Positions 11,305 to 22,128 of a stretch of DNA of 41,100 nt are shown here, in pieces. The position numbers and the translations under genes were made by a program. Source of the DNA: an uncultured Bacteroidota bacterium (lineage in GTDB: Bacteria; Bacteroidota; Bacteroidia; Chitinophagales; Chitinophagaceae); the NCBI GenBank assembly GCA_903839875.1, contig CAIMDZ010000191.1:1-41100 (forward strand). The letters run 5' to 3'. Position 1 is the stretch's first letter. Each line of letters opens with the position of its first letter. The notes beneath the pieces are model-generated. The model saw only the letters and a list, made by a program, of their open reading frames with translations, was not told the origin of the DNA and made no database searches.

Positions 11305-13788
11305 CTACTGCTTTAGAAATTTGAGAACTTTAGTACCATTTTCTCCTTTGAGGGTAATGAAGTATATACCTGCGGGGAGTGTGCTGATGTCGGTTTTGGT
11401 TAGAGTAGTTATCAGTCGTTGTTGCAGCATTGACTGACCCATAATGTTGGTAATAGTAAAGGAACTGTAGGCATCTTTTCCCATCTTAATGTTTAATTCA
11501 TCATTTGCAGGGTTAGGATATACCTGGAGCGTTGTTTGTTGCGCAGTATTGACTTTTGATGGTCCGTCAATAATGTCTTCAACGGTATTGGTCATAACAA
11601 CGGGGTTGCCATCGAAATAGATGCCGCAACGATTAAAAATGGTAGCGCCACCCGTAAGGCCCGGCCTGGTGCGGATATTGAATACGAGCATGGCATCGCA
11701 CAGGCCGTGATGAGAGCTATCGGGTAAGTTGATATTCGGGAAATCGAACTTAACAATGTTATGTCCTGATGCATCTTTCAATTTGGAGAACATCATGTTT
11801 GCCGTGCTCATCACCAGCCGCAATGAAGAGATGTCAACATTACCGGAGAGGGTATCCATGACGTGGATATTAAATGCGGTATCATGGCCCGTATTCTCAA
11901 ACACAATGGTATAGGTAAGCAGCGTATCGGCAGGTATGTAACCGGAAGGTTTTACTTCGATATAGTTAGGGTCGAAACCAGCCCGTACGGTGTCAATAAT
12001 TATGCTTACATTATCTGAGGGATTTGCATCGCCAGTGGCAGGTGCAATAGCATAACTGGTAAGAACTGTATCGCCGTCTGGATATGACGCTCCTACTCTG
12101 TTGCATTCTATGGTAATCATTGCGTGGCTGGTAGAAGCAAATGACAGCATACCTACATCCCATGTTACCACGCCACCTGAAACCGATAACGGGCTGGGTG
12201 AAGAACTAGAAAAATCATACCTGGGGTTCATTGTCATAGATACAGTACCGACTACAGGCGTACAGTTAATATTGTCAACTGCAATACGTGCAAAGAATGC
12301 ATGTGGACCTGCCAAGGCGGATGAAAATACTTGAAGATCATAAGAAGGTCCGCTGGTGGTGCAATTCTCGCCAAAATTATTAGGAGCTAGCGTTAAAGTA
12401 CCCGACCGCAATGTGTCGGATATGTGTCCTGTTGCCGGGCATGTTACTGAAAGTCCTGATGTTGTGGAAATTGGGGAAAAAGTATAAACTGTTCCGGGGT
12501 TGCCATAAGCCGTGTAGTAAAAACCACCGGTTGCAGGAATAGAATCAACACTCACACCATTTGAGTCAACCATTGTCAGGGTTGGTTGGTTAATAAAAGG
12601 TTCTAAAGGATCCTTTATACAATTGCCGTTAATGTCGAAATAAAACATAACCGGAATCACATTGCACAATGAAATATTAAGCGTATAACTAACGGAGTCA
12701 ATTGGTGTTGAGCCATTAAACAATCTATGCTTTATGGTGTAGGTGCCTGAAGTGGAATAGGGATGCATGTTATTCGTAAACCCATTGTAGCCGGCGCTTA
12801 ATATAGTATGTGTATCAGTAGTGCCATCCCCATAATCAGAGGTGACGCTTAACCCGGGATGGTAAGTGTTAGTGATAATATAAAAAGCCCCGCCACCACA
12901 TGGATTCATGGTATGAACTACAAAACTATCGGAGATGTGGCTTATGCCAGCAGGCACAGAAAGCCGCTTTGTTGTTGCACAGTTTTCTATAGCATAGCCG
13001 GTGGTGCCGTGCTGCAGTACCATACCGATAACGCTGAAATGTGCTGGGTTAGCGCCTGATGGTATTGTATAGGTGTAATGTTTTGCAACAGCCGTACCAA
13101 AAGAAGGGTTAACAAAAGCAGGCTCACCATTGATAGACCCTCCCACTGCCAATATTTTCTTTACTACTTCAGAATGGTAAAAAAGTGTTGAAGGGGAAAT
13201 TATACTGCCTGCAGTAGCAAACCATGAAGGACTACCAGTGCAGGAAAGGCTAGACGAAGTATAATAGTTGTGCTGGCCATAAGCACCGGCACTGGAAATG
13301 CTGTCCTGTATGATCAATGCATTCATATACCATGTGCCTGTTAATGACATCAATGGTGTTCCGGTGACAACTATATCCATTATCCTTGTTGACGAATCAT
13401 ATGACCATGCTATGTCCACATCGAATCTGGGTGAGACAGTACTTTGAATTGCGATATAAGACTCAAATGGCATGCTTAAGGTACTGGAACCAGCGAAATC
13501 TGCCCTGTCAACTGTGCCACTTGGATAACCTGACAAGTAAACCGAAAAAGGATCGCCGGTAAGAGCCAACGAGTCACTTCCATGCCATGCAGCAATGATT
13601 GCATTTGGGTAAAATGGCAATATTTTTTCTTCTATGTCCTGGAACAGATCAGGGCAGAAACCCTCCCATATGCCAGTTCCTACTTCAAGCAAAACATTCT
13701 TAGCGCCATAAGTAGATACAAACAATTGCGCATGTGCCCCTGAAAAAGTGAGAAGTGCGGACAAGCAAAGTAGAAATGTCTTACGCAT
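11305..13788 (-). CDS. Omp28-like T9SS surface protein, paralogue A
   Basis: The product has 827 residues, with a signal peptide MRKTFLLCLSALLTFSGAHA. The N-terminal domain (VLLEVGTGIWEGFCPDLFQD, then YPNAIIAAWH and GYPSGTVDR) follows the Omp28-related thioredoxin-like pattern VLxExxTGxxCGxCP, but the first Cys is replaced by E42. C45 remains. A PKD-like segment (SDYGDGTTDTHT), a Cna/SdrD-like segment (YFDINGNCIKDPLEPF) and a DUF11-like segment (LTYTIVFENTGHDTAFNIHV) follow, then a T9SS type A tail (VYPNPANDELNIKM ... LPAGIYFITLKGENG). It is paralogous to the gene at 14064-16568 over its whole length and in the same orientation. Expected location is the cell surface. Function is unknown. A redox role is unlikely with one Cys missing. 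Confidence 0.8.
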   Translation of the reverse strand: MRKTFLLCLSALLTFSGAHAQLFVSTYGAKNVLLEVGTGIWEGFCPDLFQDIEEKILPFYPNAIIAAWHGSDSLALTGDPFSVYLSGYPSGTVDRADFAGSSTLSMPFESYIAIQSTVSPRFDVDIAWSYDSSTRIMDIVVTGTPLMSLTGTWYMNALIIQDSISSAGAYGQHNYYTSSSLSCTGSPSWFATAGSIISPSTLFYHSEVVKKILAVGGSINGEPAFVNPSFGTAVAKHYTYTIPSGANPAHFSVIGMVLQHGTTGYAIENCATTKRLSVPAGISHISDSFVVHTMNPCGGGAFYIITNTYHPGLSVTSDYGDGTTDTHTILSAGYNGFTNNMHPYSTSGTYTIKHRLFNGSTPIDSVSYTLNISLCNVIPVMFYFDINGNCIKDPLEPFINQPTLTMVDSNGVSVDSIPATGGFYYTAYGNPGTVYTFSPISTTSGLSVTCPATGHISDTLRSGTLTLAPNNFGENCTTSGPSYDLQVFSSALAGPHAFFARIAVDNINCTPVVGTVSMTMNPRYDFSSSSPSPLSVSGGVVTWDVGMLSFASTSHAMITIECNRVGASYPDGDTVLTSYAIAPATGDANPSDNVSIIIDTVRAGFDPNYIEVKPSGYIPADTLLTYTIVFENTGHDTAFNIHVMDTLSGNVDISSLRLVMSTANMMFSKLKDASGHNIVKFDFPNINLPDSSHHGLCDAMLVFNIRTRPGLTGGATIFNRCGIYFDGNPVVMTNTVEDIIDGPSKVNTAQQTTLQVYPNPANDELNIKMGKDAYSSFTITNIMGQSMLQQRLITTLTKTDISTLPAGIYFITLKGENGTKVLKFLKQ

Positions 13789-14063: not shown

Positions 14064-16568
14064 CTATTGTTTGACAAATTTAAGAACCTTTGTACCATTG
14101 TCACCCTTGAGGGTAATGTAATAAATACCTGCGGGGAGTATGCTGATGTCAGTTTTGGTTAGGGTAGTTGTTAAAGATTGCTGTATCAGGGTCTGGCCTA
14201 TGCTGTTGGTAATAGTGAATGAACTAAAGTCGTCCTTGCCCATTTTTATATTTAATTCATCATTAGCGGGGTTGGGGTAAACCTGCAGGGCTGTTTGTTT
14301 CACGTCATTTACTTTTGAAGGGTTGCCTATGATATCTTCCACTCTGTTGGTACCAACCACAGGGTTGTTATCGAAGTAAATACCTGCACGATTGTAAATG
14401 GTTGTGCCCACAGGCAGGCCTGGTTTGGTTTTGATATTGAATACCACCATTCCGTCGCATTTGCCGTGATGGGTACTGTCAAGCAGTTCTATCATCGGGA
14501 AATCGAACTTAACGATGTGGTGACCACCGGATGTGATATTGGATATCATCATTTTTGCCGTGCTCATTTCAAGGCGCAGGGAGTTGATGTCTACATTGTC
14601 GGACAGGGTATCCATAATCCGGATGTTGAACGCTGTGTCGTTGCCTGTATTTTCGAATGCGATGGTGTATTTCAGTGTAGTGCCTGCGGTGATCATGCCT
14701 TCCGGAGACACATCCATGTAGTTGGGATCATAACCCGCGGTCACTGTGTCGACATGCACACATGAATTACTGGTGGGGTCAGCATCTCCTGAAGTTGGGT
14801 TGACAGTATAATCTGTATAAACTGTGTCTCCATAGGCGTAAAAAGTACCAGATGGTGACTCGCAATACCAGGTGATCAGAGACGGGCCGCCGATTGCTGA
14901 CGACAGGCTGCCGGCGTTCCAGGTGGCAATACCGCCGGAAACGGATGTTGGCGCAGGGTAAGATGAGGAGAAATTATACCTTGGGTTGAGTGTCATTGTC
15001 ACGATGCCTGTAGTGGGTACGCAATAGAGATTGTCTACCGCGATCTGACCACGGAATGAATGTGAGCCTGCCCTGCGGGTAGTGAAGATCCGGAGGTCGA
15101 AGGCAGATCCGGTGGTACTGCATTCTTCGGCGAAATAATTTACAGGTAATACCGATGCTCCTGACTGAAGCGTGTCTGTCTGATATCCACTGCTGGGGCA
15201 GGTAAGCACAAGGCCGGTAGTGGTGGAGATTGGAGTAAACTTGTACACATCACCGGGGTTGCCATAAGCGGTATAGTAGAAACCACTTGTTGCTGAAATA
15301 GTGTCAACAATCACACCATTGGAGTCAACAAGGGTAACGGTTGGCTGGTAAAGTAAGGATTCGGTAGTGTCTTTAACGCAGTTGCTGTTGGCATCGAGGT
15401 AGAACATAACCGGAATTACATTGCAAAGCACGTAGGTATTAGAATAGGTGGTGCTATCAATAGCTGTTGTGCCATCGTACAATTTCTGTTTAACAGTATA
15501 AGTGCCGGATGAAGTATAGGCATGACTGAAATTAGCGTAGCCGGTCAGACCAGCACTGAGGATGGTATGCGAATCGGAAGAGCCATCACCATATTCGGAA
15601 TAGATACTAAGACCAGAACGGTAAGATGCGGTAGTGACATAGAAACCTGTGCCGCTGCAATCGTTGCCGGTGTAAACGGTAAAGCTATCGGCGGTTATAG
15701 CAACGCTTCCGGGAGGCATGAGCCTTGTTTGGGAAGAAACGGCATTTTCGACAGCACGGTCAGAGGTAGTTGCACCATATTTCTGCACCATGCCGGCTAC
15801 CTTCATATTGAAGGGGTTGGAGGTGGTGGGAACGGTATAGGTGTAATGCTTCATTACTGTGGTTCCGGCAGTTGGATTTGTAAAAGCACTTTCGCCCCAA
15901 ATGCTGCCGCCGGTACAAAGAATCTTCCTGACAACGTCGGAATGTGGGAAAAGCGATGCAGGGGAGATTGGATTACCAGCAGAAGCATACCATGAAGGGC
16001 TGCCGGTGCAGGAAGTAGGGTAGGAAGTACCATAATAATTGTGCTGGGCATAAGTACCTGCACTGGAAATACTGTCTTCAATTACGAGCGCGCTGATATT
16101 CCATGAGCCTGTCAAAGTGGCGAGGGCTCTGCCGGTAACAGTTACGTCCATCACCCTTGTGGAAGGGTTGTAGGTACATAACATATCCACATCAAAATTT
16201 GGCGTGAGGGCGCTCTCTGTGCCCACATATGTTTCCCAGGGGCGACTTTGCGCCACAATACCGCCGATCAAAGCCCTGTCAATGGTAGCCATTGGGAATC
16301 CGCTGATATAACCGGTACCTGTGCAATAAGGGTCGCCGGCCACTTGCATGGAGTCTCCATTATGCCATGCGGCGATAATAGCATTTGGATAATAAGGAAG
16401 TATTTTTTCCTCTGCATCCTGGAATGCATCAGGGGCCCAACCGGTCCAGGCGCCAACGGCAACTTCAACCAAAACGTTTTTCGTTCCGTAGGTGGAAACA
16501 TGTAATTGAGCAAATGAAGATGAAAAAGCCATAGAGGCTGTAACCAACAAAAGGGATAATTTCCGCAT
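14064..16568 (-). CDS. Omp28-like T9SS surface protein, paralogue B
   Basis: The product has 834 residues, with a signal peptide MRKLSLLLVTASMAFSSSFA. Its layout is the same as paralogue A: Omp28-like N-terminal domain, PKD-like segment (SEYGDGSSDSHT), SdrD-like segment (YLDANSNCVKDTTESLLYQP), DUF11-like segment (LKYTIAFENTGNDTAFNIRI) and T9SS tail (VYPNPANDELNIKM ... LPAGIYYITLKGDNG). The Omp28 CxxC site is gone completely: VLVEVAVGAWTGWAPDAFQD has T42 and A45 at the two Cys positions. The last 75 or so residues are nearly identical to those of paralogue A, which points to recent duplication or conversion of the tail. It has its own terminator. Divergent from the riboswitch operon upstream. 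Role unknown. Confidence 0.8.
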   Translation of the reverse strand: MRKLSLLLVTASMAFSSSFAQLHVSTYGTKNVLVEVAVGAWTGWAPDAFQDAEEKILPYYPNAIIAAWHNGDSMQVAGDPYCTGTGYISGFPMATIDRALIGGIVAQSRPWETYVGTESALTPNFDVDMLCTYNPSTRVMDVTVTGRALATLTGSWNISALVIEDSISSAGTYAQHNYYGTSYPTSCTGSPSWYASAGNPISPASLFPHSDVVRKILCTGGSIWGESAFTNPTAGTTVMKHYTYTVPTTSNPFNMKVAGMVQKYGATTSDRAVENAVSSQTRLMPPGSVAITADSFTVYTGNDCSGTGFYVTTASYRSGLSIYSEYGDGSSDSHTILSAGLTGYANFSHAYTSSGTYTVKQKLYDGTTAIDSTTYSNTYVLCNVIPVMFYLDANSNCVKDTTESLLYQPTVTLVDSNGVIVDTISATSGFYYTAYGNPGDVYKFTPISTTTGLVLTCPSSGYQTDTLQSGASVLPVNYFAEECSTTGSAFDLRIFTTRRAGSHSFRGQIAVDNLYCVPTTGIVTMTLNPRYNFSSSYPAPTSVSGGIATWNAGSLSSAIGGPSLITWYCESPSGTFYAYGDTVYTDYTVNPTSGDADPTSNSCVHVDTVTAGYDPNYMDVSPEGMITAGTTLKYTIAFENTGNDTAFNIRIMDTLSDNVDINSLRLEMSTAKMMISNITSGGHHIVKFDFPMIELLDSTHHGKCDGMVVFNIKTKPGLPVGTTIYNRAGIYFDNNPVVGTNRVEDIIGNPSKVNDVKQTALQVYPNPANDELNIKMGKDDFSSFTITNSIGQTLIQQSLTTTLTKTDISILPAGIYYITLKGDNGTKVLKFVKQ

Positions 16569-16731: not shown

Positions 16732-16739
16732 TACATTTG
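16732..16739 (+). promoter_or_regulatory. -7 box of the B12 operon
   Basis: TACATTTG, followed by CA, matches TAnnTTTG. It ends seven bases before the first paired base of the riboswitch (16746), exactly where a promoter for the leader RNA is needed. No TTG at -33 spacing. Confidence 0.5.
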
Positions 16740-16753
16740 CAGCCGCAAAGGTT

Positions 16754-16771
16754 TCCCGACTCACGTCGGGA
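16754..16771. repeat. palindrome forming a peripheral riboswitch stem (type TCCCGAC/GTCGGGA)
   Basis: TCCCGAC-TCAC-GTCGGGA is a perfect 7-bp inverted repeat inside the stem-loop between GGTTTCCC and GGGAACC. Its form is that of short dispersed palindromes rather than the compact loop usual in this riboswitch. Confidence 0.55.
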
Positions 16772-16863
16772 TGAAAAGGGAACCGGGTGTAAATCCCGGA
16801 CATTACCCGATGCTGTAAGTTCCATTAAAAAGCTTTCTGTTACCTGTTTTGCCACTGTCTCGA

Positions 16864-16881
16864 TCCCGATAGCTATCGGGA
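16864..16881. repeat. palindrome inside the riboswitch between B12 box and GGGAAGGC (CCGATAGCTATCGG family)
   Basis: TCCCGATAGCTATCGGGA is an 18-bp perfect palindrome. Its 14-bp core, CCGATAGCTATCGG, recurs exactly at 37498-37511 in unrelated intergenic DNA. It occupies a variable peripheral stem of the riboswitch. Confidence 0.7.
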
Positions 16882-17056
16882 GGACGGGAAGGCCTCAGAA
16901 AGTGGAACGAGTCAGAAGACCTGCCTTTGTAATAACTTATCGCTGCTTTCGGGACCAAAAGCACAGGTGAGATAAAGGTGGGTTGTTCCCCGTTTTTTTC
17001 TGTATCTGAATTTCCCAAGCCGCTTTATATTAATTGTTTTTAAAACCAATTTTTAT

Positions 17057-18034
17057 ATGCGCACATTTACCATCATTTTTTCAGCCCTTGTACTGGGTAC
17101 TTCGGGTATGAAGGCACAAACCGTTGCTACATTTGAGAGCCTCAGCCTTGCATCTGCAGACACATTTTATGTCAACTATTCATCGTCCGGTTCGGATGTG
17201 GGGTTTAATAACGGGCTGGCACATTTCCCCTGCGTGTATGACACCTCATGGGGTGGTTTCTGGAGTTATGGGTTTGTATATTCCGACAGGACTGATAGCG
17301 TGACCAGTGGTTATACAAACCAGTATTCGGCAAAAACGGCGATAGGGTATGGCGGTTCTGCAAAATATGCTATAGCTTATGGTACCTCTAACAGGGTACT
17401 ACTGCAGGGTGCTGCAACTGACCATCCGGTGAGCGGGGTTTATGTAACCAACAGCACCTATGCTTATAACAGTATGAGAGATGGGGATGCTTTTGCAAGA
17501 AAGTTTCATAATGGCGACTGGTTCAAGCTTTCGGTGCAGGGATATCATGGAGGTACTTTGCAGCCAACAATAGTAAGTACCTACCTGGCTGATTTCCTTT
17601 TCCCGGACACAACCATGAACTACATTCTGAAAAACTGGCAATGGCTGAATCTTGCTTCTCTGGGGCCGGTGGATAGTCTTGACTTTACTTTGAGTTCAAC
17701 GGACAATGGCACATACGGCATGAATACACCTGCTTACTTCTGCATTGATAATTTCACTACAGATGAATCTGCTAATTTATCAGTTGGCAATACAGCTGTG
17801 GCTCCGGTTGCAAAAGTGTATCCAAATCCGGCATTAAATACCTTGTATGTGGATGTCGCTGATAACAACGTGCAATTGGTAGCCTTACTTGATATGGCGG
17901 GAAATGTGATAAGGACATACAATGCATCTTTATCGCATTTGGAGATAAATACGGCAACATTGCCTGCGGGGATATATGTGTTGCAAATGACGGGGAGTGG
18001 AGGAATTGCTACGGTAAAATTTGTGAAACAATAG
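17057..18034 (+). CDS. DUF4465-family T9SS surface protein of the B12 operon
   Basis: The product has 325 residues, with signal peptide MRTFTIIFSALVLGTSGMKA. The body matches what I recall of DUF4465: ATFESLSLASADTFYVNYSS near the start, GFWSYGFVYSDRTDSVTSGY, then SVQGYHGG and a C-terminal NTPAYFCIDNFTT strand. The last 75 residues are a T9SS type A tail (AKVYPNPALNTLYVDVADNN ... LPAGIYVLQMTGSGG, VKFVKQ). It is the first gene after the cobalamin riboswitch. DUF4465-type proteins are regular companions of BtuB receptors in Bacteroidota, and I believe the B12-binding BtuH proteins belong to this group, but I am not certain. Corrinoid capture at the surface is therefore inferred, chiefly from context. 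Confidence 0.8.
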   Translation: MRTFTIIFSALVLGTSGMKAQTVATFESLSLASADTFYVNYSSSGSDVGFNNGLAHFPCVYDTSWGGFWSYGFVYSDRTDSVTSGYTNQYSAKTAIGYGGSAKYAIAYGTSNRVLLQGAATDHPVSGVYVTNSTYAYNSMRDGDAFARKFHNGDWFKLSVQGYHGGTLQPTIVSTYLADFLFPDTTMNYILKNWQWLNLASLGPVDSLDFTLSSTDNGTYGMNTPAYFCIDNFTTDESANLSVGNTAVAPVAKVYPNPALNTLYVDVADNNVQLVALLDMAGNVIRTYNASLSHLEINTATLPAGIYVLQMTGSGGIATVKFVKQ

Positions 18035-18043
18035 CGAGTAACA

Positions 18044-18076
18044 AGATGTGCCACACCTCTGAGGTGTGGCACATCT
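18044..18076. repeat. 33-bp perfect palindrome between the first two B12 operon genes
   Basis: AGATGTGCCACACCTC and GAGGTGTGGCACATCT flank a single central T (18060). The stem would be very stable in RNA. No T-run follows, so it is not a simple terminator. It may be a dispersed repeat, an mRNA stabiliser or a polarity element. Confidence 0.7.
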
Positions 18077-18097
18077 ACAAACATCTAACCAAAGGTT

Positions 18098-19096
18098 ATG
18101 AAACAATATTTTTTCCTTCTTTTGATCGTTTTCCTGAATCAATCCGCTTATGCACAGTATGCGCCACAGGCTGGATTGCCAGGAAGTACTGCAATCAGTG
18201 CAACGAGCGGACAGTTTATTAGTTGGGCCACTCATTGTGTTGTTCAACGTGGGTATATGAATATTGCAAACCCATCATTGGGGTATGCCAGCGCCGGTGA
18301 CAGCAGCCTGGCGATAGGCGCAGCTGATAATAGTATTGTGAGCCTTGGTGATAGTGGTATAGCAGTACTTACTTTTGAACATCCGATAATAAATGGACCG
18401 GGACCAGACTTTGCTGTGTTTGAAAACGGGTTCTTAAATACTGCTAATGACAGCGAGGCTTATTTAGAGCTGGCATTTGTAGAGGTGAGTTCTGACGGGA
18501 TTAATTATTTCAGATTTCCGGTTACATCGCTTACGCAGAATAATGTGCAGATAGGAAATGGGGACTATATCAATGCGTGCAACCTCAGCAACCTGGCAGG
18601 GAAGTATGTTGGGATGTATGGAACTCCGTTTGACCTGAACGACCTGGCCGGCATTGCGAGGCTGGACATCAATAATGTTACCCATGTTCGTGTTGTAGAT
18701 GTGGTGGGTTCTATCGGTGAGCATGGTTCGAGAGATAATTCGGGCAGGGTGATCAATGATCCATATCCTACGCCTTTCCCATCATGTGGTTTTGACCTGG
18801 ATGCGGTGGGGGTTATTAATCAGTCGGGAACGGGTGTAAAAAACCAGAACGAAAAAGTGTCGGTGAATGTTTATCCGAATCCTGCGAGTGACAGAGTTTT
18901 TATCTCGCTGAAAAGTGCGCAGGCGGATGAAGTGACGGCGACGCTTACGAATATTACGGGGCAGGTGCTGCAGTATGTTTCATTGTCGCAAGGTGAAACG
19001 GAGATGCACGTAGCGCAATATCCGGCAGGACTCTATTTTCTTGTTTTACGCGATGCAACAGGCAACCAATGGGTAGAAAAAGTTACAAGGCGCTAA
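18098..19096 (+). CDS. T9SS surface protein of the B12 operon (PEP-CTERM-like beta-sandwich domain)
   Basis: The product has 332 residues, with signal peptide MKQYFFLLLIVFLNQSAYA. The central domain has SLGDSGIAVLTFEHPIINGP, GPDFAVFENGF, YLELAFVEVSSDG, FDLNDLAGI and GFDLDAVGVIN. I associate this pattern (LG.GG.. VL.F ... GPDF.VFEN ... A.V.VS.DG ... G...DL...) with cell-surface proteins found in BtuB loci and in PEP-CTERM exoproteins. A T9SS type A tail ends it (VSVNVYPNPASDRVFISLKS ... YPAGLYFLVLRDATG). It lies 63 bases after the DUF4465 gene, and its last 28 bases overlap the lipoprotein gene that follows. Binding of corrinoid or of the receptor complex is an inference from position. Confidence 0.75.
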   Translation: MKQYFFLLLIVFLNQSAYAQYAPQAGLPGSTAISATSGQFISWATHCVVQRGYMNIANPSLGYASAGDSSLAIGAADNSIVSLGDSGIAVLTFEHPIINGPGPDFAVFENGFLNTANDSEAYLELAFVEVSSDGINYFRFPVTSLTQNNVQIGNGDYINACNLSNLAGKYVGMYGTPFDLNDLAGIARLDINNVTHVRVVDVVGSIGEHGSRDNSGRVINDPYPTPFPSCGFDLDAVGVINQSGTGVKNQNEKVSVNVYPNPASDRVFISLKSAQADEVTATLTNITGQVLQYVSLSQGETEMHVAQYPAGLYFLVLRDATGNQWVEKVTRR

Positions 19097-20145
19097 TCCT
19101 GATTTTATGCTTGCTGGGGGCTTGCGTAAAAGATAAACCGGATGCAGGTGTTAAGCCTGTGCTCACCGGCAGCGGTAATATATATGTGGTCTGCGAAGGG
19201 AGTTATGGAAAAGGTGCTGCTACGCTATACGTGTATGAAAAGAGCAATGACAGCGCCTTTGGAGATATGTATAGCAGTATAAACGGCCAGCCGCTGGGCG
19301 ATGTGTTCCAGAGTATGACGAAGATAGGCGACAGGTTTTTTCTTTGCGTGAATAATTCGGATAAGGTTGTTGCGATTAATTCAGGTGATCTCACTTTTGC
19401 CGGCGTTATCACCATATTCAAGCCAAGGTACATTTTGCAACTAAGCGCAACCAGGGCGTATGTAACTTCGGAATACCGCAACAAGGTGTATATTATCAAT
19501 CCGCAGACGATTCAATTGACTGACTCGTTCAGTTTACCGTACATAAATACGGAGGGCTTATGCCTCTATGGCAACAGCGCATTCATTTGCACCTGGGACA
19601 CAGGTTGTAATGAAATTTACAAGGTGGATATAAACACAAACAAAGTCATTCAAAAAGTGAAGGTAGCGGGATATGCGCCGCAGGAAGTATTGCTGGATAA
19701 AGAGCAGATGCTTTGGGTGCTATCGGGCGATCAGCCGGTGTCTAACCCGAAGGTATGCGCGTTTACACGTATTGACCCATCGTCCGGAGACATACTTGCT
19801 TCTTACACATTTTCGGCTGATGCAAATGTTATTAAGCCGGTATTTAATGCTGCCAGGGACACTTTGTATTTTATAGAAGCAGATTATTTTGGCGGCACCG
19901 CGTATAATGGGATTTACAGGATGGGTATACATGAGGCGGCTTTGCCAACGATCCCGTTTGTTGCTGCAAAGTCATTCCAGGATTTCTGGGGGATAGGAGT
20001 TGATCCGGAAACGGGATTGATTTATGTGGGCGACCCAAAAGGTTGGGGTAAGAAAGGTAGTGTGTATGTATACAGACCTGATGGTACGCTGGTGAAGAGC
20101 TTTGATGTAGGCGAGGGACCGGGGCATTTTTATTTTGATGAGTGA
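19069..20145 (+). CDS. btuG: BtuG-like surface lipoprotein, seven-bladed beta-propeller
   Basis: The product has 358 residues. A lipoprotein signal is clear: LILCLLGAC with lipobox LLGAC and Cys at residue 19. The rest is a YncE/DUF5074-like propeller with repeated blade patterns: GNIYVVCEGSYGKGAATLYV, VVAINSGDLTFAGVI, KVYIINPQTIQLTDSF, EIYKVDINTNKVIQKV, GLIYVGDPKGWGKKGSVYVY. In Bacteroides, BtuG propeller lipoproteins bind B12 with extreme affinity at the cell surface and sit on BtuB. Same order here: riboswitch upstream, BtuB-like receptor 24 bases downstream. The start (ATG 19069) lies inside the preceding gene, indicating translational coupling. Assignment rests on fold, lipid anchor and context. 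Confidence 0.8.
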   Translation: MGRKSYKALILILCLLGACVKDKPDAGVKPVLTGSGNIYVVCEGSYGKGAATLYVYEKSNDSAFGDMYSSINGQPLGDVFQSMTKIGDRFFLCVNNSDKVVAINSGDLTFAGVITIFKPRYILQLSATRAYVTSEYRNKVYIINPQTIQLTDSFSLPYINTEGLCLYGNSAFICTWDTGCNEIYKVDINTNKVIQKVKVAGYAPQEVLLDKEQMLWVLSGDQPVSNPKVCAFTRIDPSSGDILASYTFSADANVIKPVFNAARDTLYFIEADYFGGTAYNGIYRMGIHEAALPTIPFVAAKSFQDFWGIGVDPETGLIYVGDPKGWGKKGSVYVYRPDGTLVKSFDVGEGPGHFYFDE

Positions 20146-20169
20146 GAGTTTTTGAAAATGGTTGCTGAA

Positions 20170-22128
20170 ATGAATATATTTTCAAAGGCATTATTATTTG
20201 CAATAATGGTGTGCTGTTTGCCATGCAAAATATTTGCCCAGCAAGTAATGGATACGACATTACAGGAAGTAAAAATCCACGGCAAGCATAAAAATTCCTA
20301 CGACACAAAAGTAAATGACTTCTCGCCGGGCCAGAAGATAAAGACCATTGACAGCGCTACGCTGCAGCAATTCCAGTTGCAGAGCATGGCAAGTATGCTG
20401 ACACAGCAGACGCCGGTGTTTGTTAAGTCTTACGGGTTTAACGGATTAGCTACGCTGAACTTCAGAGGATCGTCGTCGGCGCAGTCAATGGTATTGTGGA
20501 ATGGGGTGCCAATACAGAATGCGGCTTTGGGGATTTCGGATATATCTACACTACCTGTGCTGTTTATGAGCAAGGTGCATATTGATTATGGTAGTTCTGC
20601 GGCACTGCTGGGTAGTGGAAATGTGGGCGGTGCGCTGCTTATCGAAAATGAATCGCCTGTGTTTGATTCCGGGAAAAGGACTTTATCATTTTGCGGAGGT
20701 GTTGGTAGTTTTAATCAATACATGGCCGGCATTAAAGAGAGCAGGTCATTCAGACACTGGTATTTTTCGGCAAAGGCTTTTGCGCAATATGCTGAAAATA
20801 ATTTCAATTATACCAATAGTCCTGGTAACAAAACAACCCTTACCAACAGCAAGTTGCAAAGTGAGGCTGTAATGTTACAGGCCGCTTATAAGATGAGTGA
20901 AGAAAATGTACTTAGTCTGTGCGCCTGGTACCAGCAATACGAACGGCAAATACCTCCTGCATTATTTGAAAATTACTCTGATAAGAACCAAACGGATGGG
21001 TCGCTGAGAACGCTGCTGGAATGGAAAAAACACAGGAGGGATAATAGCTGGTATTTAAAATCTTCGTTTACCAGGGATGAAACGCATTACAGGGATGATG
21101 CTATACTGATTAAGTCAGATAATGTTGTATACCAATTTTATAATGAAGCAGGCTACAGAAGAGACTTGCCTCAATTCGGTAAAGTGTTGGTTTTTATACC
21201 TGTGCAGGTATCATGGCTGCCGCAGGCCGATGGGACCAAACAGCAGGATAAGGCTGCGATTGCCGCTGCATACGAAGTTCAGTTTTTTAATAACAAACTG
21301 GAAATTGCAGTAAACGGAAGAGGAGAGACAATCATTGCGCAATCAAAAGATTCATCTGTTAAACACACTTTTATTCTGCCGGGTTTAAATGCTTCGTTTA
21401 CCCTTACAAATTGGTTGTCGCTGAGGGGAAATGTGCAGCGCACTTACCGCGCACCTACCCTGAATGAGTTATATTATTTTCCCGGTGGCAATATTAGTCT
21501 GAAACCAGAACAGGGGTGGAGCGAGGATGGGGGGTATGCCATGAAATTCAATGCTGGTAAGACTTCAGTTTTTCATGATCTCTCCTTATTTACGAGGGAC
21601 ATTCATGATTGGATATACTGGTTTGGCGGAGCGATATGGACGCCGCATAATATTGCTGAGGTGCATAGCAGGGGTGTGGAGACGGAAAATAATTTAAGCG
21701 TGAATGTGGGTCATGGTATGCCGCATTGGAAATTACATTTAGGCGTCAATACTTCTTATGTTTTGGCAACCACTGTCACCAGCTATATTTACAACGATGG
21801 CAGTGTTGGCAAACAAATTCCGTACACACCAAGGTATAACGGTCAGGTGAATGTGGGGTTTTCGTATGCGCACCGTGATAAAGAGTTTTCTTTTAACTAT
21901 AACCACTCCTATACCGGCTACCGGTTTACTACCACCGACGAGTCCTCCTATATTTTGCCTTATCAGACAGGCAACGTTCAACTGATGTATAAAACGGAGG
22001 TTTTTCATCACCCGGTTCAGTTCATTGGTGCCTGCAATAATATCTGGAATACACAATACCAGGTAGTAGATCAGCGGCCAATGCCGGGAACGAACTGGAC
22101 AATTGGTGTGCAATTGACACTAAAATAA
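20170..22128 (+). CDS. btuB: TonB-dependent outer-membrane receptor, BtuB-like (cobalamin)
   Basis: The product has 652 residues. Of the in-frame starts (TTG 20152, ATG 20158, ATG 20170) I prefer 20170, which gives the signal peptide MNIFSKALLFAIMVCCLPCK before IFAQQ. Next come TTLQEVKIHGKHKN, a TonB-box-like segment, and the plug domain (LATLNFRGSSSAQSMVLWNG, IPQNA-like loop, VHIDYGSSAALLGSGNVGGA). The rest is alternating beta-strand sequence of a 22-strand barrel (ITLRGNVQRTYRAPTLNELY-like segment near residue 430, then KPEQGWSEDGGY), ending in GTNWTIGVQLTLK. Substrate (cobalamin) is inferred from the riboswitch and the BtuG-like partner. Inner-membrane BtuCD and BtuF are not in the window. 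Confidence 0.88.
   Translation: MNIFSKALLFAIMVCCLPCKIFAQQVMDTTLQEVKIHGKHKNSYDTKVNDFSPGQKIKTIDSATLQQFQLQSMASMLTQQTPVFVKSYGFNGLATLNFRGSSSAQSMVLWNGVPIQNAALGISDISTLPVLFMSKVHIDYGSSAALLGSGNVGGALLIENESPVFDSGKRTLSFCGGVGSFNQYMAGIKESRSFRHWYFSAKAFAQYAENNFNYTNSPGNKTTLTNSKLQSEAVMLQAAYKMSEENVLSLCAWYQQYERQIPPALFENYSDKNQTDGSLRTLLEWKKHRRDNSWYLKSSFTRDETHYRDDAILIKSDNVVYQFYNEAGYRRDLPQFGKVLVFIPVQVSWLPQADGTKQQDKAAIAAAYEVQFFNNKLEIAVNGRGETIIAQSKDSSVKHTFILPGLNASFTLTNWLSLRGNVQRTYRAPTLNELYYFPGGNISLKPEQGWSEDGGYAMKFNAGKTSVFHDLSLFTRDIHDWIYWFGGAIWTPHNIAEVHSRGVETENNLSVNVGHGMPHWKLHLGVNTSYVLATTVTSYIYNDGSVGKQIPYTPRYNGQVNVGFSYAHRDKEFSFNYNHSYTGYRFTTTDESSYILPYQTGNVQLMYKTEVFHHPVQFIGACNNIWNTQYQVVDQRPMPGTNWTIGVQLTLK

Follow-up and report, generated by a model that had tools for sequence, protein, structure and literature searches.

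The window analysed here is a stretch of 41,100 nucleotides (contig CAIMDZ010000191.1 of GenBank assembly GCA_903839875.1) from an uncultured member of the Chitinophagaceae, phylum Bacteroidota, and our subject is a cobalamin (B12) operon within it. The operon is headed by a full-length cobalamin riboswitch aptamer on the forward strand (16732-16942; RF00174, E 2.4e-25, 104.7 bits, gathering score 31.5), the only Rfam match above gathering score in the window; a search of the source assembly under stricter filters gave no second RF00174 match. Downstream lie four collinear genes on the same strand, at 17057-18034, 18098-19096, 19069-20145 and 20152-22128. Both the riboswitch and the four-gene operon had been proposed in a first-pass annotation of the sequence, and our Rfam run, open reading frames and domain matches agree with it, save that the riboswitch end given there (16980) exceeds the end of the Rfam match. 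A possible terminator-like hairpin with a T run lies 3' of the aptamer (16974-17004, forward strand; consensus scan) and is a candidate expression platform, albeit a weak one at chance level: 2 terminator-like sites were found where 5.2 are expected by chance, and the hairpin has a fold z of -1.56, with 15 of 200 shuffles equally good. The four genes probably form a BtuJ-BtuH-BtuG-BtuB capture operon, in which the BtuJ and BtuH-like products carry tails of the type IX secretion system (T9SS) that replace lipoprotein signals. Signal peptides and the lipobox were called by eye.

The first gene (17057-18034) encodes a BtuJ-type protein with a signal peptide, a DUF4465 domain (residues 64-233) and a T9SS type A tail (residues 254-325). 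The DUF4465 match (PF14717; E 9.9e-51, 173 bits against a gathering score of 25) is the only one in the source assembly, and the solved relatives of the product are DUF4465/BtuJ proteins. The tail is matched by Por_Secre_tail in Pfam and by TIGR04183 (49.8 bits, cut-off 23). DUF4465 has been described as the cobalamin-binding family BtuJ, eight members of which were shown to bind B12 (PMC13398666, PMC12751083); in BtuJ1, the conserved tyrosines for B12 are given as Y146 and Y245 (PMC13398666). Both align with tyrosines of the window protein, Y135 and Y227. Judged by its sequence, the product belongs to the BtuJ family, and it is itself predicted to bind B12. The first-pass annotation needs changing on this point: DUF4465 is no unknown, being the BtuJ family.

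The third gene (19069-20145), whose first 28 bases overlap the second, encodes a BtuG-like lipoprotein β-propeller. It matches DUF5074 (46.1 bits, cut-off 27.2) and solved BtuG chains down to E 4e-38, and its N-terminus contains a lipobox (...LLGAC); it is thus a DUF5074/YncE-like propeller related to solved BtuG and a lipoprotein. The fourth gene (20152-22128) is listed with a TTG start, with ATG codons at 20158 and 20170. Its product, a TonB-dependent receptor, contains Plug and TonB_dep_Rec domains and is closest to solved Bacteroides BtuB, matching BtuB chains down to E 4e-50. Against the NCBIfam BtuB equivalog TIGR01779 it scored 68.9 bits, below the cut-off of 599.7, and we therefore term it BtuB-like, on the basis of its solved Bacteroides relatives and its B12 context.

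The second gene (18098-19096) encodes a protein with a signal peptide, a central domain (18158-18820) and a T9SS type A tail (residues 258-329; TIGR04183, 40.3 bits, cut-off 23), so that the tails predicted earlier for the first two products are both confirmed. Por_Secre_tail is its only Pfam match. A direct search of the PDB returned T9SS tails only. A profile of its close relatives failed to bring up any solved structure (best E 0.79) or any Pfam family (at best E 0.13, reached by one of 23 members). The NCBIfam LIC_13355 lipoprotein family was matched below threshold (27 bits against 120 for the window domain; 22 of the 23 members at E ≤0.1), and Foldseek by itself left the fold of the window domain unsettled. 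A relationship to BtuH emerged from structure comparison and from deeper profiles. When two models were compared with solved structures, 7biz (BtuH2) ranked first and 8blw (a chain that includes the BtuH portion of BtuG1) second; the fold class itself is common. Near the edge of significance, the family profile reached a protein encoded directly 3' of BtuB and BtuG in another genome (G165, locus L122), and this protein is BtuH (E 4e-57 to 7biz and 1e-67 to 8blw). Comparison of a profile of 47 family members with BtuH gave 94.5% (E 8e-8), that of 19 deep relatives alone 96.2% (E 2e-9) and that of 28 closer members alone 43.8% (E 2e-4), against at most 1.1% for the three other operon families and at most 3.3% for 30 column-shuffled BtuH profiles. 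In the reverse direction, a BtuH-domain query against 247 genomes detected classical BtuH in 6; it also picked out two deep-relative loci, those of G075 (E 2e-4) and G070 (E 4e-4).

The domain thus combines a BtuH fold with a sequence-profile relationship to BtuH, and the second protein very likely contains a divergent BtuH-type domain. The first-pass annotation had singled it out as a candidate new part: it is indeed unassigned in Pfam, but fold and profile indicate a divergent BtuH type, probably no new kind of protein. The contrast drawn there with Bacteroides loci that use BtuH is also weakened, since the operon probably contains its own BtuH counterpart, the second protein.

Relatives of the second gene are widespread and are found chiefly in B12 loci. 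The domain query matched in 39 of 60 related genomes. Within the genus, 33 of 35 genomes matched (the source genome included), the two without a match being 85% and 59% complete, and the order DUF4465, second gene, BtuG was kept in 28 of the 30 loci of the genus search, the other two being broken by contig ends. Using the 23-member profile, we found matches in 32 of the 247 genomes of the phylum sample, the source genome and 31 others. Wider loci were obtained for 29 of these 31 (G070 and G171 were left out), and BtuG or BtuB was present in 24 of the 29. Deep-branching loci (L087-L106), for which the profile matches are weak (E 1e-7 to 1e-16), contained BtuG or BtuB in 20 of 20 cases; by coordinates, a riboswitch lies upstream in 11 and is absent in 9. 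Of the five loci without BtuG or BtuB, a cobalamin riboswitch precedes the gene in L108 and L113 but not in L107, L110 or the weak match L121. In none of the six genomes with classical BtuH did the second-protein profile find a further match, the one in G165 being its own BtuH; as chance would give less than one overlap, we do not claim that lipoprotein BtuH and the T9SS form exclude each other.

A scan of genome contigs yielded at least 498 relatives, the best 80 of which form a named set that leans to close relatives; among the matches listed, Flavipsychrobacter metagenome-assembled genomes (MAGs), Taibaiella soli and Chitinophagaceae MAGs are included in the closest loci. DUF4465, BtuG or BtuB was present in 73 of these 80 loci, in each case with one of the three as the immediate neighbour of the second gene, and DUF4465 itself in 50. 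The commonest orders, with X for the second gene, were BtuJ-X-BtuG-BtuB (18 loci), BtuJ-X-BtuG (12) and X-BtuB-BtuG (12). A cobalamin riboswitch lies upstream of the second gene in 71 of the 80 loci. For 59 of these, Rfam positions were mapped to the loci, with contigs matched by coordinates and sequence rather than by name, and under a lenient check that covered range, strand and a five-base box; 11 others and L201 were confirmed by cmscan. The cmscan search for RF00174 found no match in L142, L180, L184, L185, L198, L200 and L202; it did not extend to L131 and L162, whose contigs begin within the operon. Rfam results were used throughout because a home-made riboswitch pattern was insensitive and gave some false matches. 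Of the seven named loci without any partner gene, L170, L172, L183 and L192 still have a riboswitch upstream (in L192 a thioesterase-family gene intervenes) and L185, L200 and L202 do not. Homologues of the second protein are therefore not mostly away from B12 loci, in keeping with the B12 role first suggested for it.

Several of these loci have further features. In L108 (1368-3100) and L113 (6024-7751), a DUF6580 gene lies between the riboswitch and the BtuH-like gene and may encode a B12-linked membrane protein. In L036 (273-3444), a 521-amino-acid T9SS-tailed protein with no other Pfam domain is encoded between a cobalamin riboswitch and the BtuH-like gene, and is a candidate B12 surface protein. 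Gaps of about 0.8-1.7 kb between riboswitch and BtuH-like gene (L157, L158, L165, L190, L194, L195, L201 and similar loci) match none of the four operon families and probably hold another uncharacterised gene. In 12 of the 80 named loci, genes for BtuJ, the BtuH-like protein and BtuG are present but the locus has no BtuB match; loci lacking that match include L132, L136, L139, L140, L145, L148, L150, L153, L154 and L159, and some of them stop at a contig edge while others run into unrelated genes. L046 (2402-8050) encodes an 1882-amino-acid protein in which the BtuH-like core motif occurs several times, with no operon partner near, and in L088 (6156-11258) and L089 (2346-7414) the BtuH-like and BtuB genes are flanked by two BtuG-like propeller genes.

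The B12 contacts of BtuH2 are reported as Gln333, Asn399, Phe401, His476, Tyr510, Trp511, Trp577 and Leu578 (PMC8941943), and all eight letters were found in the printed chain with a numbering offset of 100. Aligned via L122, Asn399 and Phe401 correspond in the window domain to Asn90 and Phe92, positions that are invariant in 47 of 47 members; Gln333, in a PAPGQ motif, has a counterpart in some deep relatives only. On this alignment, the nucleotide-loop side is the best-kept part of the putative BtuH site in the second protein. Two points temper the case for B12 binding by the second protein: most of the corrin contacts lie in the half of BtuH that could not be aligned, so that His476, Tyr510, Trp511, Trp577 and Leu578 could not be placed, and the domain is shorter than that of BtuH. 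For these reasons binding is given as a prediction, although we consider it fairly probable that the second protein binds a cobamide.

The same two points lend some weight to an alternative that we regard as rather unlikely, namely that the second protein keeps a BtuH/discoidin-like fold and has lost B12 binding, serving instead as a surface scaffold, as a glycan- or lipopolysaccharide (LPS)-binding anchor, or as an assembly component keeping BtuJ or BtuG close to BtuB. In the structure comparison, CBM32 and discoidin-like modules come next after BtuH, and BtuL, an accessory protein of Bacteroides thetaiotaomicron under the same control, is reported not to bind B12 (PMC12751083). Against this, BtuH is both the best structural match and the sole significant profile match, the positions of the phosphate-side residues Asn399 and Phe401 are invariant, and, of the seven named copies with none of the partners BtuB, BtuG and BtuJ, four are nevertheless preceded by a riboswitch, a hint that the protein has a B12-linked function in its own right.

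Could the second protein be the counterpart of BtuL itself? In B. thetaiotaomicron locus 2, with the order btuJ2-btuH2-btuL-btuG2-btuB2-btuF-C-D-btuX, BtuL is encoded between BtuH2 and BtuG2 and is described as promoting early vesicle release (PMC12751083). The second gene likewise lies next to BtuG in an operon of the same kind. L120, in genome G296, is informative here. Its riboswitch is followed by genes for a DUF4465 protein (a lipoprotein, judged by eye), a BtuH with N-terminal domains, a 728-amino-acid protein, BtuG and BtuB. This order matches locus 2, and the second gene of the window occupies the place that BtuH has there, after BtuJ. In L120, moreover, the gene in the BtuL position encodes an unlike protein beside a separate BtuH (BT_1955 itself was not compared), and with the kinship of the second protein to BtuH this makes a BtuL counterpart highly improbable. 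We hold it equally implausible that the second protein is a hitchhiker, a T9SS surface protein that takes no part in B12 uptake: this would fit the absence of a Pfam domain, the six lone loci with neither riboswitch nor partners (L185, L200 and L202 in the named set; L034, L107 and L110 outside it), the weak match L121 and the L046 repeats, but it is contradicted by the gene order kept across the genus, by the immediate BtuJ, BtuG or BtuB neighbours in the named set and by the BtuG or BtuB genes of the phylum-sample loci.

We surveyed T9SS tails with a small model built from five window proteins. Second-gene products carried a tail in 75 of the 80 named loci, in all 17 of the family set, the window included, in 12 of the 20 deep-branching loci and in 5 of 9 of L107-L122 (109/126 in total). 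DUF4465 products did so in 52 of 52 named cases (68/71 overall), and BtuG-like products in none of 69 named cases (2/113 overall). A crude, loose lipobox pattern matched 38 of the 69 named BtuG-like products and 13 of the 80 named second-gene products. The T9SS translocon SprA is encoded in the source genome (2459 bits, cut-off 200) and was found in none of 14 control genomes, Bacteroides ihuae among them. With TIGR04183 tails above cut-off and the translocon in the genome, the first two products have the features of T9SS type A cargo and are predicted to be exported by this route. These tails lend support to the first-pass idea that B12 capture may use an export route unlike that of Bacteroides. 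In the papers searched, most subscription papers and all preprints lying outside the search, none was found that joins T9SS export to B12 capture, and neither "T9SS" nor "type IX" appears as a term in the main text of the two BtuJ papers (PMC13398666, PMC12751083). A cobalamin riboswitch is reported to precede a TonB-dependent receptor in Flavobacterium psychrophilum (PMC9723704). The source genome encodes the B12-dependent MetH and gave no match to CbiD, a single marker that is no proof of loss of the whole corrin pathway; together these observations fit B12 scavenging.

Overall, the locus is likely to be a cobalamin-repressed corrinoid-scavenging operon whose T9SS-exported BtuJ and BtuH-type capture proteins feed BtuG-BtuB. 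The riboswitch would permit expression when B12 is scarce, as repression by B12 in the source organism would imply. BtuB (20152), with BtuG (19069) as its lipoprotein lid, would form the outer-membrane transporter, following the lid model for BtuB-BtuG (PMC10404256). BtuJ (17057) and the divergent BtuH-type protein (18098) would pass the inner membrane by their signal peptides and the outer membrane by the T9SS, to be attached to the surface or released; there they may bind scarce cobamides and hand them over to BtuG-BtuB. A broader view, which we put forward only tentatively and hold to be doubtful, is that in T9SS-bearing Bacteroidota BtuJ and BtuH-like proteins act like hemophores, released or attached to LPS, which pick up B12 at a distance from the membrane and return with it to BtuG-BtuB; the T9SS form of BtuH would then be widespread and perhaps ancestral, the lipoprotein BtuH of gut Bacteroides a later re-anchoring, and the family a phylum-wide one rather than a gut speciality.

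These results place next to BtuH a large, unnamed and mostly T9SS-tailed family, with at least 498 relatives in one scan and matches in 31 further genomes of the 247 sampled, and a function is proposed for a domain with no Pfam or NCBIfam family above cut-off. If the family binds cobamides, environmental Bacteroidota capture B12 with proteins that leave the cell by a route not connected with this vitamin in the papers searched. B12 scavenging by secreted proteins, not by vesicles alone, becomes directly testable.

Two other features lie in or beside the operon. Between the first and second genes, a perfect 16-bp inverted repeat with a one-base loop (18044-18076; fold z -5.4) recurs at 31 sites in the source genome with at most two mismatches, 19 of them exact, and its reversed control at none; some copies show matched changes in both arms. 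It is probably a member of a dispersed palindromic repeat and not specific to the operon. The direct repeats seen have two copies each. On the opposite strand beside the operon, two adjacent, related T9SS-tailed DUF7619 proteins are encoded (11305-13788 and 14064-16568), one of which has an Omp28 match.

Compared with characterised systems, the first protein shares with BtuJ (PF14717, IPR027828; PMC13398666) the domain, both B12 tyrosines, the NTPAY motif and the B12 locus, and differs by its T9SS tail. BtuB and BtuG are both present and encoded by adjacent genes, with no striking difference from the solved transporter (PDB 8p97, 8p98, 8bmx; PMC10404256). BtuH is described as a domain that binds B12, for which no structural homologues were known, and as uneven in its distribution in gut Bacteroidetes (PMC8941943). 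With BtuH of B. thetaiotaomicron (BT_1956, 7biz), the second protein shares the best fold match, a significant profile match, the Asn399 and Phe401 positions and the place in the operon. It is nevertheless remote by sequence: its domain is shorter and too divergent to align in the second half, the N-terminal PKD domains are absent, and a T9SS tail stands in contrast to the lipoprotein signal of BtuH. At the level of the whole operon, B. thetaiotaomicron locus 2 likewise has a cobalamin riboswitch, BtuJ as the first gene, a BtuH-type gene right after it and BtuG followed by BtuB. The window operon differs in having no btuL-like gene within it and no btuF-C-D, genes for which the rest of the genome was not searched, and in the T9SS tails of its BtuJ and BtuH-like protein, where the Bacteroides proteins carry lipoprotein signals.

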